DNA of 64,000 bases, taken from Deltaproteobacteria bacterium GWB2_55_19 (GTDB lineage Bacteria > Desulfobacterota > GWC2-55-46). The notes beneath the pieces are model-generated. The model was not told the DNA's origin. It saw nothing but the letters and a program-made list of their open reading frames with translations, and made no database searches. The stretch's first letter is position 1; every line of letters starts with the position of its first letter. Position numbers and translations under genes: made by a program. The stretch covers positions 1-64,000 of the forward strand of contig MGPQ01000001.1 of assembly GCA_001797465.1 (NCBI GenBank), in the 5' to 3' direction. Positions 1 through 33,676 of the stretch are shown here, piece by piece.

Positions 1-132
1 CTCCTGCCGCTTCCTCCCTCCATCTCTACACCTCCAGGATTAGATTCCTATAACACTAACCTTTTGGTGTGTCCACTAAATCGGGGGAAGGGCAGGTTGC
101 AAACCTTACAAACCTGAATCGGCAAAAGAGCC

Positions 133-213
133 GACCTCCCCTGGCCCCTCCTTGTCAAGGAGGGGAGCTTTATAACTCCTCCCCTTTTTACAAGGGGAGG
201 TTGGGAGGGGTCG
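133..213. repeat. Double-hairpin palindromic repeat, copy 1
   Basis: About 81 bp made of two adjacent hairpins (CCCCTCCTT/AAGGAGGGG, then CTCCCCTT/AAGGGGAG) enclosed by an outer pairing of GACCTCCC with GGGAGGGGTC. Near-identical copies lie at 32834-32911 and 32997-33074, with partial copies at 3221-3270 and 32405-32441. Here it sits between remnants that are closer together upstream of cstA, as if inserted there. Confidence 0.9.
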
Positions 214-3220: not shown

Positions 3221-3270
3221 GTCCTCCCCCCTCCTTGTTAAGGAGGGGGGACCTAAAACTCCTCCCATTT
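3221..3270. repeat. Palindromic repeat, partial copy
   Basis: CCCCCCTCCTT-GTT-AAGGAGGGGGG is a perfect 11-bp hairpin, followed by CTAAAACTCCTCCC, which resembles the start of the second hairpin of the family and then diverges. It lies 20 bases after the sulfatase-fold stop codon, so it may also end transcription. Confidence 0.7.
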
Positions 3271-3370: not shown

Positions 3371-3550
3371 CGCTATGCGCGGGGCCAGAGTTCTTCGGAA
3401 GCTATTGAGGTTAGGGTAAACGAATCGTCTCGACACGAACTTTGCCAGTCCGGCGAGGACCGCTATGCGCGGGGCCAGAGTTCTTCGGAAGCTATTGAGG
3501 TTAGGGTAAACGAATCGTCTCGATACGAACTTTGCCCGTCCGGCGAGGAT
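3371..3550. repeat. 90-bp direct tandem repeat, two copies
   Basis: Bases 3371-3460 and 3461-3550 are the same unit with only a few substitutions (for example CGACACGAAC versus CGATACGAAC). The unit starts CGCTATGCGCGGGGCCAGAG and ends TTTGCCAGTCCGGCGAGGA. Because 90 is a multiple of three, the minus-strand frame repeats a 30-residue peptide, but coding is doubtful. The final 18 bases recur in another tandem repeat at 56691-56847. Confidence 0.9.
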
Positions 3551-4002: not shown

Positions 4003-5934
4003 ATGAAACCCTCGACCATCATCCTTGCGATACTATCAATCGTCTTCGCCGTCTCGTTCGGCTTCGCGGTGCGAGTATGGAGCCCGTCGGAATCGGTGAA
4101 CGCCCTCTGGCTTGTCATCGCCTCGGCCTGTTTCTTTGTGGTTGTATACAGGGTCTACGGTGCGTTCATCTCAGCGAAGATTCTTGCGATCGACGAGAGA
4201 CGTAAGACCCCCGCATATAAGCACGACGACGGCAAGGACTTCCACCCGACGCACACGCTCGTCCTCTTCGGCCATCACTTTGCCGCCATAGCCGGGGCAG
4301 GGCCGCTCATAGGCCCGGTCCTCGCCGCGCAGTTCGGGTATCTCCCCGGTTTTCTCTGGATACTCATAGGCGCCGCCTTCGGCGGCGCAGTCCACGACAT
4401 GGTGATACTCGCGGCGTCCGTCAGAAGGGACGGCTCATCGCTCGCGCAAATCGCGAAAAAGGAGATAGGGCCTGTCGCCGGGTTCACCGCCGCGCTTGCC
4501 ATACTCTTTATCATCATCGTCGCGCTCGCGGGGCTCGGCCTCGCGGTCGTAAACGCGCTCTACAAGAGCCCGTGGGGGACGTTCACGATATTCGCGACGA
4601 TCCCTATCGCGCTCTTTATGGGCCTCTATCTGTATAAGATAAGGCGCGGGAAGGTAGGAGAGGTGAGCGTCATAGGTGTCGCGCTCCTCCTTGCCGCTGT
4701 CATCGGCGGGAGGTACATACCGGGGTCCGCGCTCGGCCCATTCTTTACGCTCGACAAGACGACGATAGTCATCATCATGGCGGCCTACGGGTTCGTAGCC
4801 TCAGTCCTTCCGGTATGGATGTTGCTCTGTCCGAGGGATTATCTCTCGACATATCTGAAGATCGGGACCGTCCTCATCCTTGCGGCGGGCGTCATATTCA
4901 TGGCCCCGGAGATACGGATGCCGGCGTTCACGAGGTTCGTAGACGGGGGCGGGCCGGTAATACCGGGGTCCGTATTCCCGTTCATGTTCATAACGATCGC
5001 CTGCGGGGCGATCTCGGGCTTCCACTCGCTTATATCATCGGGCACGACGCCCAAGATGATAAAGAGCGAGGGGGACATTCAATTAATAGGCTTCGGCGCG
5101 ATGCTCGCCGAGGGGTTCGTCGCGGTAATGGCGATAATCGCGGCGACGGTCCTCATGCCCGGCGACTACTTCGCCATCAACTCGACGCTATCGTTCGACG
5201 CCCTCGTCGCGCTCGGTTTTCCGCCCGTGAATATAATGGAATTGTCGGAGACCGTCGGGGTGAACGTCGCCGGGAGGCCCGGAGGCGCGGTCTCTCTCGC
5301 GGTCGGGATGTCGTACATATTCTCGGCGCTACCCGGAATGAAGGGGCTCATGCCCTACTGGTACAACTTCGCGCTTATGTTCGAGGCGCTCTTTATCCTG
5401 ACTACGGTGGATACCGGCACGAGGGTCGCGCGGTTCATACTCCAGGAGCTCGGCGCTTATGTCTATAAGCCGCTCGGGAGGACGAACTGGATGCCGGGGA
5501 CGATACTCACGAGCGCGCTCGTCGTGGTCGCGTGGGCGTACCTTATAAACTCGGGGTCTGTCTCTACAATCTGGCCGATGTTCGGGGTCGCCAACCAGTT
5601 GCTCGCCGCGCTCGCGCTCTCCGTCGGCACGACGATTATATTGAAACTCCATCCGAACAACATCAAGTACGCCCTTGTGACGTTCATCCCCATGGTATTC
5701 ATGTTCGTCATGACGGTCGTCGCCTCGTGGGAACTCTTCTGGATATTCTCGACAAAAGCGGCGATTGCCGCGGACCCCTCCGACGCGTTCACCTTCAGGC
5801 TGGATTCGGTCCTTGTGGCCGCGATGGCCGCGCTCGCCGTCGTCGCCATGCTGGACGCCGCGATAAAGTGGCGCGGACTCGTGAATAACGTGTCTGCAAT
5901 AACTCCCGATGCAGAGGCGCTCGATAACGATTGA
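4003..5934 (+). CDS. cstA: Carbon starvation protein A, peptide transporter
   Basis: 643 residues, highly hydrophobic with many membrane helices across the whole length. The N-terminal family block is clear: VYRVYGAFISAKILAID, then DFHPTHTLVLFGHHFAAIAGAGP and GPVLAAQFGYLPGFLWI. Later segments such as SGFHSLISSGTTPKMI and TVDTGTRVARFILQE are also typical of CstA. Family members are inner-membrane transporters for peptides and, in some bacteria, pyruvate. This copy is shorter than the roughly 700-residue E. coli form. It stands alone; the start is supported by a promoter only 15 bases upstream. A decayed copy of its 5' end lies near base 300. Confidence 0.95.
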   Translation: MKPSTIILAILSIVFAVSFGFAVRVWSPSESVNALWLVIASACFFVVVYRVYGAFISAKILAIDERRKTPAYKHDDGKDFHPTHTLVLFGHHFAAIAGAGPLIGPVLAAQFGYLPGFLWILIGAAFGGAVHDMVILAASVRRDGSSLAQIAKKEIGPVAGFTAALAILFIIIVALAGLGLAVVNALYKSPWGTFTIFATIPIALFMGLYLYKIRRGKVGEVSVIGVALLLAAVIGGRYIPGSALGPFFTLDKTTIVIIMAAYGFVASVLPVWMLLCPRDYLSTYLKIGTVLILAAGVIFMAPEIRMPAFTRFVDGGGPVIPGSVFPFMFITIACGAISGFHSLISSGTTPKMIKSEGDIQLIGFGAMLAEGFVAVMAIIAATVLMPGDYFAINSTLSFDALVALGFPPVNIMELSETVGVNVAGRPGGAVSLAVGMSYIFSALPGMKGLMPYWYNFALMFEALFILTTVDTGTRVARFILQELGAYVYKPLGRTNWMPGTILTSALVVVAWAYLINSGSVSTIWPMFGVANQLLAALALSVGTTIILKLHPNNIKYALVTFIPMVFMFVMTVVASWELFWIFSTKAAIAADPSDAFTFRLDSVLVAAMAALAVVAMLDAAIKWRGLVNNVSAITPDAEALDND

Positions 5935-31824: not shown

Positions 31825-32400
31825 ATGGGTGCTAAAGATGAAATAGAACTGCTGGACTCAAAGATCGCCCGGCTCAAGGTCGAGTACGAGCAGTACTTCA
31901 TGCGGGTATTGAAGAGAGAGCCCGCGAAGCTCCGCGACGAGGTCGACAAGCTCGTCCTGTTTTACAGCAACAAAAACCTCACCAACACGTCCCTTAGGTT
32001 CAAGTACAACACCATCGTCGCCAAATACAACTCATACAAGCAGTATTGGACGAGGACGCTCCGCGCCATAGAAGAAGGCGAGTTCCACAGGAAGGCCGAG
32101 GGCGAGCTTGAGACCGGCGCGCGCTCCGCGCCCATTCCTCCCGAGGCCCGCAGGCCCGCTCCGAATGCCGCTCCCGGGGCCGGCGATGACGTAAGGGAGG
32201 TCTACGAAAAATACATCGAGGCAAGAAAGGCCTGCAACGAGCCGACCGAGGGCATAACGCTCGGCACGCTTGAGAAGACCCTGCAGGAGTACAAAAAGAA
32301 AGTGGCGGAGCAGTACAAGACCGAGGACGTGGAATTCAAGGTCGCCATAAAGGACGGCAAAGCAAAGCTCACGATCGCGCCGAAGAAGAAGGCGGGGTAG
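31825..32400 (+). CDS. MXAN_5187-like C-terminal-domain protein
   Basis: 191 residues, no signal peptide. The N-terminal part YEQYFMRVLKREPAKLRDEV, then NTSLRFKYNTIVAKYNSYKQYWTR, matches the domain seen at the C-terminus of MXAN_5187-type myxobacterial proteins. A Pro/Ala-rich linker (about 94-118) leads to a second helical-plus-strand part (about 120-188). Function is unknown. It follows the cytochrome-porin gene by 12 bases and is probably in the same operon, though it looks cytoplasmic. Confidence 0.65.
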   Translation: MGAKDEIELLDSKIARLKVEYEQYFMRVLKREPAKLRDEVDKLVLFYSNKNLTNTSLRFKYNTIVAKYNSYKQYWTRTLRAIEEGEFHRKAEGELETGARSAPIPPEARRPAPNAAPGAGDDVREVYEKYIEARKACNEPTEGITLGTLEKTLQEYKKKVAEQYKTEDVEFKVAIKDGKAKLTIAPKKKAG

Positions 32401-32404
32401 TTTA

Positions 32405-32441
32405 ACACCTCCCCTTAACAAGGGGAGGAGGGGAGGGGTCG
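32405..32441. repeat. Palindromic repeat, half copy before the DUF559 gene
   Basis: CCTCCCCTTAACAAGGGGAGG then AGGGGAGGGGTCGTA: the second hairpin and outer end of the palindromic family. It runs straight into the DUF559 reading frame, whose recognisable residues start about 10 bases later. Confidence 0.85.
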
Positions 32442-32451
32442 TATTACAAAG

Positions 32452-32815
32452 GTCTTCAATAGAATAAGCGAAAAAACAAAACGCAAGGCCTTGAGAAATG
32501 ATATGCCCAAGCCCGAGGCATTGTTATGGGCGCGGCTCAAAAGCAAGGAGCTGGGCTATAAATTCAGGCGTCAATACAGTATAGGGTCTTTTATCGTCGA
32601 TTTTTATTGCCCGGAGTTGAAGCTGGCTATCGAGGTGGACGGGGACTCGCATTTTACGGATGATGCCGAAGAGGCCGATAGAGTTCGGGAGAATGAAATA
32701 GAATCATACGGCATACTTTCTGCGCTTTACGAACAAAGATGTATTTGAAAACTTGGACGGGGTGCTTGAGAGGATATATGAGCGCCTGTCTGAGAGGGTG
32801 CTTGTTAATAAGTAG
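32452..32815 (+). pseudogene. Frameshifted DUF559 endonuclease-domain gene
   Basis: The frame opens with VFNRISEKTKRKALRNDMPK and continues PEALLWARLKSKELGYKFRRQ, SIGSFIVDFYCPELKLAIEVDGDSH, the DUF559 (PD-(D/E)XK, Vsr-like) core. After ...NEIESYGI near 32713 the family sequence continues one frame over as YFLRFTNKDVFENLDGVLER, ending at 32815. In the original frame it stops early at 32748. A +1-type shift (one base gained or two lost) therefore breaks the gene. The first standard start is TTG 32491; the residues before it have no ATG. It is flanked by palindromic repeats on both sides, and its 3' end is repeated at 32911-32980. Confidence 0.8.
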
Positions 32816-32833
32816 TAATCTATAAACAGGAAT

Positions 32834-32911
32834 GACCTCCCCTAGCCCCTCCTTGGTAAGGAGGGGAGCTGTTTAACTCCTCCCCTTAACAAGGGGAGGT
32901 CGGGAGGGGTA
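32834..32911. repeat. Double-hairpin palindromic repeat, copy 2
   Basis: GACCTCCCCTAGCCCC, hairpin CCCCTCCTT-GGT-AAGGAGGGG, spacer AGCTGTTTAA, hairpin CTCCCCTT-AAC-AAGGGGAG, then GTCGGGAGGGGT. It differs from 32997-33074 at only a few positions. Confidence 0.92.
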
Positions 32912-32996
32912 GATGTTTAGGTATTACTGTACGGAGCGCTTGAAAGGATTGATGAGAGTCTACCTGAGAGTTAGCATTATTCTTAGAGATTAAAAC

Positions 32997-33074
32997 GACC
33001 TCCCCCAGCCCCTCCTTGGTAAGGAGGGGAGCTGTTTAACTCCTCCCCTTATTAAGGGGAGGCTGGGAGGGATC
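32997..33074. repeat. Double-hairpin palindromic repeat, copy 3
   Basis: Same design as the copy 163 bases upstream, including the AGCTGTTTAA linker. Both lie directly after a copy of the DUF559 gene tail. Confidence 0.92.
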
Positions 33075-33265: not shown

Positions 33266-33676
33266 CTACCGCCCCTTCTCCTTAACCTTTATCCGCGCCT
33301 GCGCGAGTTCAAAGGATTCGACCGTCTTTGCGTAGTCGGCGTCTTCGGGGGATAATGTCTTCAAAGCGTCCTCGGCCTTGGCTACGATCGTCTTTGCCGT
33401 TTCCATGTCTATCTCATTCGCCGTCTCCGCATTTTCGACGAGTATGGTGGTCTTGTCCGGCAGGACCTCGGCGTAGCCGCGCCCGACCGCTATGGAGCCC
33501 GTCTCAGACCCCTTCTTGTAGGTTAGCTCCCCGGCCTTAAGGAGCGTCAGGTACTGCGTGTGGCCGGCAAGGACCCCGAACTCCCCTAACCAGCCCGGGG
33601 CAGTGATCTCGTCGACTTCTTTGGAGAGGAGCCTTCTGTAAGGTGTTACTATTTCTAAAAGGAATGTGTCGGCCAT
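33266..33676 (-). CDS. atpC: ATP synthase F1 epsilon subunit
   Basis: 136 residues. The N-terminal beta-sandwich (FLLEIVTPYRRLLSKEVDEITAPGWLGEFGVLAGH) and a two-helix C-terminus are intact. It couples rotor and catalytic head and can inhibit ATP hydrolysis. It is the last gene of the operon, 21 bases after atpD, followed by a terminator. Confidence 0.97.
   Translation of the reverse strand: MADTFLLEIVTPYRRLLSKEVDEITAPGWLGEFGVLAGHTQYLTLLKAGELTYKKGSETGSIAVGRGYAEVLPDKTTILVENAETANEIDMETAKTIVAKAEDALKTLSPEDADYAKTVESFELAQARIKVKEKGR

Follow-up and report, generated by a model that had tools for sequence, protein, structure and literature searches.

How does a small nuclease gene come to lie among copies of a palindromic repeat, and could it account for their spread? 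The question is raised by a 670-bp stretch of Deltaproteobacteria bacterium GWB2_55_19 (assembly GCA_001797465.1), located within positions 1 to 64,000 of contig MGPQ01000001.1; these 64,000 nucleotides were analysed as a whole and are called the window. A preliminary description had placed a DUF559 gene there, with half a palindrome before it and two full palindromes after it, and this arrangement was confirmed (32407-32439, 32834-32911 and 32997-33073). DUF559 is a very common protein family of unknown function, and the intrastrand triplex motif (PIT/TM) was known previously from E. coli and cyanobacteria, as a repeat to which no mobility gene belonged. With a probability of roughly 0.6, DUF559/YcjD genes supply the coding portion of a small mobile element, ~0.4-0.6 kb long and with one gene, whose ends are inverted intrastrand-triplex motifs; solitary motifs and motif pairs would be such ends and gene-less derivatives, and the PD-(D/E)XK nuclease would act on triplex hairpins. 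This reading draws on the bracketing of the gene, the orientation and mirror covariation of the motifs, their pairing as ends, the co-divergence of gene and motif, a correlation across genomes, the existence of both occupied and empty sites, and the fold and conserved residues of the nuclease.

Triplex motifs flank DUF559 genes across bacteria

Motifs near genes were counted with a strict detector in a 250-bp window. For the phylum, the 29 best DUF559 matches were picked by Pfam score alone; a flanking motif was present at 28 of these loci, on both sides at 25, with a density of 0.08/kb farther off, and the single miss carries a hairpin inserted between arm and foot. The class set of 25 loci, from which four weak or truncated matches were excluded, gave a motif at 24 (23 upstream, 23 downstream). 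Across phyla, 64 of 80 DUF559 loci had a motif (3.9/kb near the gene vs. 0.12/kb far from it), compared with 21 of 245 intergenic regions at remote positions. The loci of this set were found with a profile built from flanked class members, so that set and motif pattern are not independent. The gonococcal DUF559 gene also has motifs nearby. Two control families behaved differently: the motif was found at none of 21 stand-alone GIY-YIG loci in the same class genomes and within 450 bp of 1 of 30 Y1 transposase (Y1_Tnp) loci. Enrichment of the palindrome near DUF559 genes, on which the preliminary description had staked its reading, is thus near-universal in phylum and class, absent for the two control families and also visible at the level of genomes (see below).

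The motifs are oriented. In the nearest motif the foot points toward the gene in ratios of 47:7 upstream and 52:5 downstream across phyla, and of 25:1 and 25:2 in the phylum set; in one sister species (G002) the DUF559 stop codon and the foot share bases (AAGATGTAATCTCCCC). The similarity between the left and right motifs of a locus exceeds that of shuffled pairs (0.735 vs. 0.608; 0/1000). DUF559 distance follows motif distance over 84 loci (Mantel r 0.545, 0/999), and within the class as well (r 0.38, 0/999).

Each DUF559 locus of a set of 107 was also searched with its own protein. A copy of the gene tail was found in E. coli, a short internal match in two Desulfobacterales loci and a second full gene in one locus, and partial gene copies were therefore rejected as a general signature of DUF559 loci.

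The repeat has the geometry of an intrastrand triplex

An alignment of 15 copies from genomes of the genus defines the palindrome as an 82-bp unit with the ends CGACCTCCCC...GGGAGGGGTCG, beyond which the flanks diverge. The unit resembles a REPIN, a doublet of repetitive extragenic palindromic (REP) sequences: it consists of two inverted halves, each made of a hairpin and a mirror-image foot, and such inverted pairs occur in many copies. As single-stranded DNA it folds better than 200 of 200 shuffles (z -3.25). Genome-wide counts were taken from sequence searches, and blast with one copy as query gave 50 matches in the own 2.6-Mb genome, 60 in G002, 39 in G004 and 33 in G001 (genomes, contigs and loci of the comparison are denoted by G, C and L).

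In hairpins flanking DUF559 genes of many phyla, the foot is a mirror image of the 3′ arm in which A is answered by A or T, as in GGGGGAAGG-TTA-GGATGGGGG. Among 99 asymmetric arms, perfect mirror feet were far more frequent than perfect direct copies (49 vs. 5), and feet swapped in from other loci reached the observed mean match in 0 of 1000 permutations. This mirror relation of arm and foot corresponds, by its sequence, to the geometry of a purine-motif intrastrand triplex with predicted G.GC, A.AT and T.AT triads, and the same geometry assigns the window repeat to the PIT/TM class. A variant motif, in which a second small hairpin takes the place of the short arm-foot loop, was seen at four loci (L157, L201, L202, L271) and escapes the strict detector.

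E. coli ycjD adjoins a published triplex motif

PIT elements were reportedly the subject of earlier work by Hoyne et al., which Holder et al. (2015) cite. The E. coli motif TM_ECO, earlier called PIT, has 23 copies in MG1655, forms a triplex in vitro and varies between strains (Holder et al., 2015, PMC4666352). The same paper reports that transposase or integrase remnants were never found around TM_ECO, and it mentions neither nucleases, ycjD, DUF559, gene bracketing nor a wide phylogenetic pairing (PMC4666352).

We observed that about 170 bp separate the end of the DUF559 gene ycjD (b1289) from TM_ECO no. 9, which follows it, that a degenerate motif lies at its stop codon and that a copy of its own tail stands between the gene and the published motif. 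Of the five published TM_ECO pairs, four have their feet inside and a short spacer, which is the arrangement around DUF559 genes. Among 5,426 E. coli genomes, 3,333 have ycjD together with its surroundings. The other strains examined hold the eef operon at this place (PMC12817139), and ycjD is therefore not a clean empty-site case. Directly upstream of ycjD lies a long perfect palindrome, CACCTCATTCTGACAA...TTGTCAGAATGAGGTG (L226, ~5755-5805), which is not a triplex motif.

Occupied and empty sites

Empty sites in relatives, for which the preliminary description had called, were found together with occupied ones within a single genus. The junction between atpC and the conserved hypothetical gene is occupied in G000, G002 and G003, and holds neither motif nor gene in G005, G012, G014, G015 and G017. 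In G002 (C2, L040/L038) an extra gene of ~1.1 kb separates atpC from the DUF559 element, so this junction took a further insertion. A different DUF559 element occupies the hdrA-mvhD junction in G002 and G004, and the site is empty in G003. At the same junction G000 and G001 carry an unrelated repeat; the palindromic repeat recorded at this junction (G000 C9, L318 ~1290-1480; L307) reads CAGGCTRCTGAAAAAGTCC ... TTTTTGAGTAGCCTG. Two Deinococcus plasmids have the element in the same hpa operon, each at another junction; the oxidoreductase-hpaE junction is gapless in D. proteolyticus, and strain NW-56 has the insertion there.

Four sites, hrpB-mrcB, fepB-entC, alx-sstT and ygfF-gcvP, were compared over the 5,426 E. 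coli genomes; some alleles were occupied, others empty or deleted in part, and no clear target duplication was seen. The fepB-entC motif pair is present in 2,752 genomes; other genomes lack it and are ~187 bp shorter there. Several strains without this pair (e.g. UM146, MS20673) have far fewer motif matches per genome than strains with it, a difference confounded by phylogroup. Inverted ends that bracket a gene, together with occupied and empty sites, are the marks of an insertion sequence or transposon, and both were found. The site comparisons show gain or loss, not mechanism.

The main rival to movement of gene and motifs as one unit is homing, for which motif pairs already in place would be the target. 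The triplex motifs would then form a repeat family of their own, and DUF559 would be a free-standing homing endonuclease: it would cut paired motifs, and double-strand-break repair would copy it into the space between their feet. This would suit the presence of the homing endonuclease I-Bth0305I among the closest solved relatives, and the way in which the gene fills the gap between the feet, leaving a median of 28 bp upstream and 22 bp downstream of the profile match. Gene-less E. coli pairs with feet inside, the two nested element remnants of the window and the duplicated gene tail at ycjD can be read in the same way, as can the recombination hotspots that DUF559 segments form during experimental evolution of Legionella (PMC12308824). 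However, gene and motif, and left and right ends, co-diverge over the 84 loci, as expected of one unit, and the commonest motif pair in the sampled loci has its feet outside (38 vs. 16). Moreover, although gene-less motif pairs exist, the empty sites compared at atpC and hdrA-mvhD lack the whole motif-gene-motif block and retain no motif. Because gene and motif co-diverge and the empty sites are motif-free, we favour movement of the whole unit and consider homing unlikely.

The DUF559 protein has a Vsr-like nuclease fold

In a profile search the window gene matched PF04480 with an E-value of 6e-20 (68.9 bits, cut-off 20.6), and its product retains DFYC..AIEVDGDSH, that is, the conserved D..ExDG..H core. 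The gene is broken by a frameshift near 32720, where it has two bases fewer than the intact orthologue of a sister species, and its tail runs on in another frame to a TAG at 32813-32815. The DUF559 identity given in the preliminary description stands. Orthologues at the same site are intact in two sister species (L037 of G003, L038 of G002).

The predicted protein model (mean predicted local distance difference test score, pLDDT, 86) matches 3hrl, the DUF559 protein of N. gonorrhoeae (Z 15.2), I-Bth0305I (Z 11.6), Vsr (Z 9.8) and TnsA (7.0). By sequence, 3hrl and I-Bth0305I were the only matches in the PDB. The protein thus has a nuclease fold with conserved residues, which form invariant columns of the alignment. 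Caulobacter VsrA carries DUF559, is linked to DNA damage and underlies an SOS response when the ScmA methylase is missing (PMC12907096); this link and the Legionella hotspots are independent hints that DUF559 proteins act on DNA.

The VsrA damage phenotype and the Vsr-like fold could also speak for a host function, in which DUF559 would be a structure-specific repair or mismatch nuclease that polices triplex motifs, with the motifs serving as regulatory or stabilising sites and spreading by other means. Motifs do outlast the DUF559 gene in some genomes. Yet the distribution of the gene is uneven even among members of one genus, its location changes, and a promoter or terminator site needs no inverted bracketing on both flanks right at the coding ends. 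We consider a host role of this kind improbable.

Motif excess follows DUF559 at the level of genomes

Since the phylum motif pattern is loose, only its difference from a reversed-pattern control was used. Among 59 relatives the median hairpin excess over this control was 16.5 in genomes with DUF559 and 0 in those without (p 2e-4; kinship not modelled), and among 218 phylum genomes it was 20 vs. 3 (p 3e-6; kinship not modelled).

Could a Y1 tyrosine transposase move the palindromes, as in REP sequences with their REP-associated tyrosine transposases (RAYT), with DUF559 as a passenger or as an element that prefers to insert into them? The full units resemble REPINs, and Y1_Tnp genes occur in about half of the relatives. 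The Y1 transposase was nevertheless rejected as the mover, given the rarity of the motif at Y1_Tnp loci (1/30). A single Y1_Tnp match, scoring under the curated cut-off, was found in the own genome and none in G001 or G003, although G001 has the repeat. We therefore regard a true REP/RAYT system as very improbable. The weakest explanation, that the C-rich hairpins are widespread intergenic features, either terminators or repair scars, or were picked up by a biased detector, would fit motifs that are intergenic and G+C-rich and an 80-locus set found with a query built from flanked members, but it is refuted by the intergenic, reversed-pattern and other-gene controls, by the 28 of 29 loci chosen on Pfam score and by orientation and mirror covariation, and it merits almost no credence.

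The window holds probable remnants of two elements

The features of the locus are collected in Table 1. The strict detector reported seven triplex motifs in the 64 kb, five of them inside the 670-bp DUF559 stretch.

Table 1. Coordinates of the DUF559 locus, its neighbours and solitary repeats in the window
Feature	Position	Strand	Remarks
DUF559 locus span	32407-33073		between conserved hypothetical gene and atpC
Conserved hypothetical gene, left neighbour of insertion site	31825..32400	+	atpC synteny in other genera
Upstream half element	32407..32439	+	hairpin CCTCCCCTTAACAAGGGGAGG and foot GGGAGGGGTC, foot toward gene
DUF559 (YcjD-type PD-(D/E)XK) gene	32473..32815	+	Pfam match 32473-32715; frameshifted near 32720
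Full REPIN-like unit 1	32833..32913		foot-hairpin-linker-hairpin-foot; triplex motifs 32834-32866 (minus), 32878-32911 (plus)
Tail remnant of a probable second, different DUF559 gene	32926..32973	+	..YGALERIDESLPES stop; ..LERIDESLPES
Full REPIN-like unit 2	32996..33074		triplex motifs 32997-33029 (minus), 33042-33073 (plus)
atpC (ATP synthase epsilon), right neighbour of insertion site	33266..33676	-	
Solitary full REPIN-like unit	132..213		ends CGACC/GGTCG
Solitary decayed single hairpin	3221..3255		same palindrome family; blast match C1:3228-3271

The second gene tail before the last palindrome, which had been taken as a duplication of tail plus palindrome as one unit, is present. The two downstream palindromes are 92% alike and the two DUF559 tails just 64%. 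Sister species G002 has one tail and one palindrome, and these share 86% identity over 155 bp with the second tail and its palindrome. Because the tails differ by 36% and the second one matches G002, a tandem duplication was ruled out, and on these alignments the locus is better read as probable remnants of two different DUF559 element copies. Of the two solitary palindromes described before, the one at 133 is a full copy (133-211), and the one at 3221 proved to be a decayed single hairpin (~3221-3255). A tandem repeat of ~90 bp (CGCTATGCGCGGGGCCAGAGTTCTTCGGAAGC...) at 3375-3540 lies beside the latter. An Rfam search of the window returned no RNA families, and PADLOC matches were weak and partial.

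A possible mechanism and its difficulties

How could such an element spread? The motif, when single-stranded on the lagging strand, at a replication fork or in extruded duplex, would fold into a hairpin with a third strand. The Vsr-like nuclease would recognise the folded motif and nick at or beside its foot, and the freed or copied segment may be re-inserted through host repair or replication. Gene-less pairs would have arisen by internal deletion or as single ends, with folding and recognition retained. The comparisons show the association; recognition of the structure, nicking, copying and insertion, and the movement of the palindromes by DUF559, are inferred.

Several points weigh against the mobile-element reading. 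Neither target-site duplication nor fresh transposition was seen at the compared sites, which are old, diverged or interrupted by gaps. The nuclease alone lacks a strand-transfer activity, so re-insertion must lean on the host, and in vivo triplex formation is unsupported for the E. coli motif (PMC4666352). The window gene, broken as it is, is the sole DUF559 gene of its 2.6-Mb genome. Four relatives (G005, G011, G015, G017) and the less complete G001 are rich in motifs without DUF559, and the reading therefore needs past gene loss. Conversely, a sister genome with few motifs can hold an intact gene: in G003 there are hardly any palindrome matches away from the DUF559 locus, against dozens in its sister genomes, although this distribution also counts in favour of the reading. 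Three of the four matches excluded from the class set (L029-L031), distant and weakly DUF559-like, have no motifs. Finally, orientation is not universal, as the DUF559 elements of Deinococcus (L358 1465-1863, L362 1378-1890), which are symmetric with long terminal inverted repeats, have feet that point outward, opposite to most phyla.

It is a more tentative suggestion, held at somewhat below even odds, that stand-alone DUF559 nucleases and intrastrand-triplex repeats belong together as a single class of mobile elements found throughout bacteria. A solitary Vsr-like PD-(D/E)XK nuclease would, without any transposase, spread itself and gene-less derivatives by acting on a folded, triple-stranded DNA end. 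If true, the PIT/TM repeats of E. coli, cyanobacteria, Neisseria and many others would gain an origin. The repeats get a candidate mover from this tie and DUF559 a candidate substrate, and it is testable in E. coli K-12, where ycjD adjoins a published triplex motif. In the open-access texts searched, as far as these were available, we saw no report of the connection (subscription journals and preprints lay outside the search).

Comparison with known systems

With PIT/TM_ECO the window repeat shares the pattern CCCTCnCCC-loop-GGGnGAGGG-TTA/CCG-GGGTGAGGG, the intergenic position and the frequent inverted pairs (PMC4666352). The link to DUF559, the bracketing of a gene and the wide phylogenetic pairing are absent from the TM_ECO description (PMC4666352).

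The EDxHD/Vsr-like homing endonuclease I-Bth0305I is the closest fold after 3hrl and a significant sequence match; like its gene, DUF559 would be a mobile nuclease gene. Unlike the DUF559 element, however, these homing endonucleases are not known to lie between inverted repeats or to give rise to families of repeats. The Vsr mismatch nickase and Caulobacter VsrA share the fold, and VsrA in addition carries DUF559 and the SOS link (PMC12907096), but flanking repeats are not described for them.

There is also a likeness to REP/REPIN sequences and RAYT (TnpA_REP): in both, a small nuclease gene is bracketed by inverted palindromes, many gene-less palindromes lie elsewhere, and the pairs have REPIN geometry. 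Given the enrichment near DUF559 genes, the "REP/RAYT logic" of the preliminary description is therefore fair for the anatomy. It does not extend to membership. REP hairpins carry a GTAG or CGTC tag at their foot (PMC3733652), whereas the foot here mirrors the long arm (GGGAGGGGTCG / CGACCTCCCC(T)AG) in a putatively triplex-forming motif, and the gene next to the repeats encodes a PD-(D/E)XK enzyme, not an HUH/Y1 transposase. Judged from these features, the DUF559 element appears to work like REP/RAYT while being unrelated to it. A nuclease with its non-autonomous palindromes is a known kind of system, here built from unrelated parts; it would be a second, independent invention of the REP/RAYT strategy and may even represent a wholly new class.
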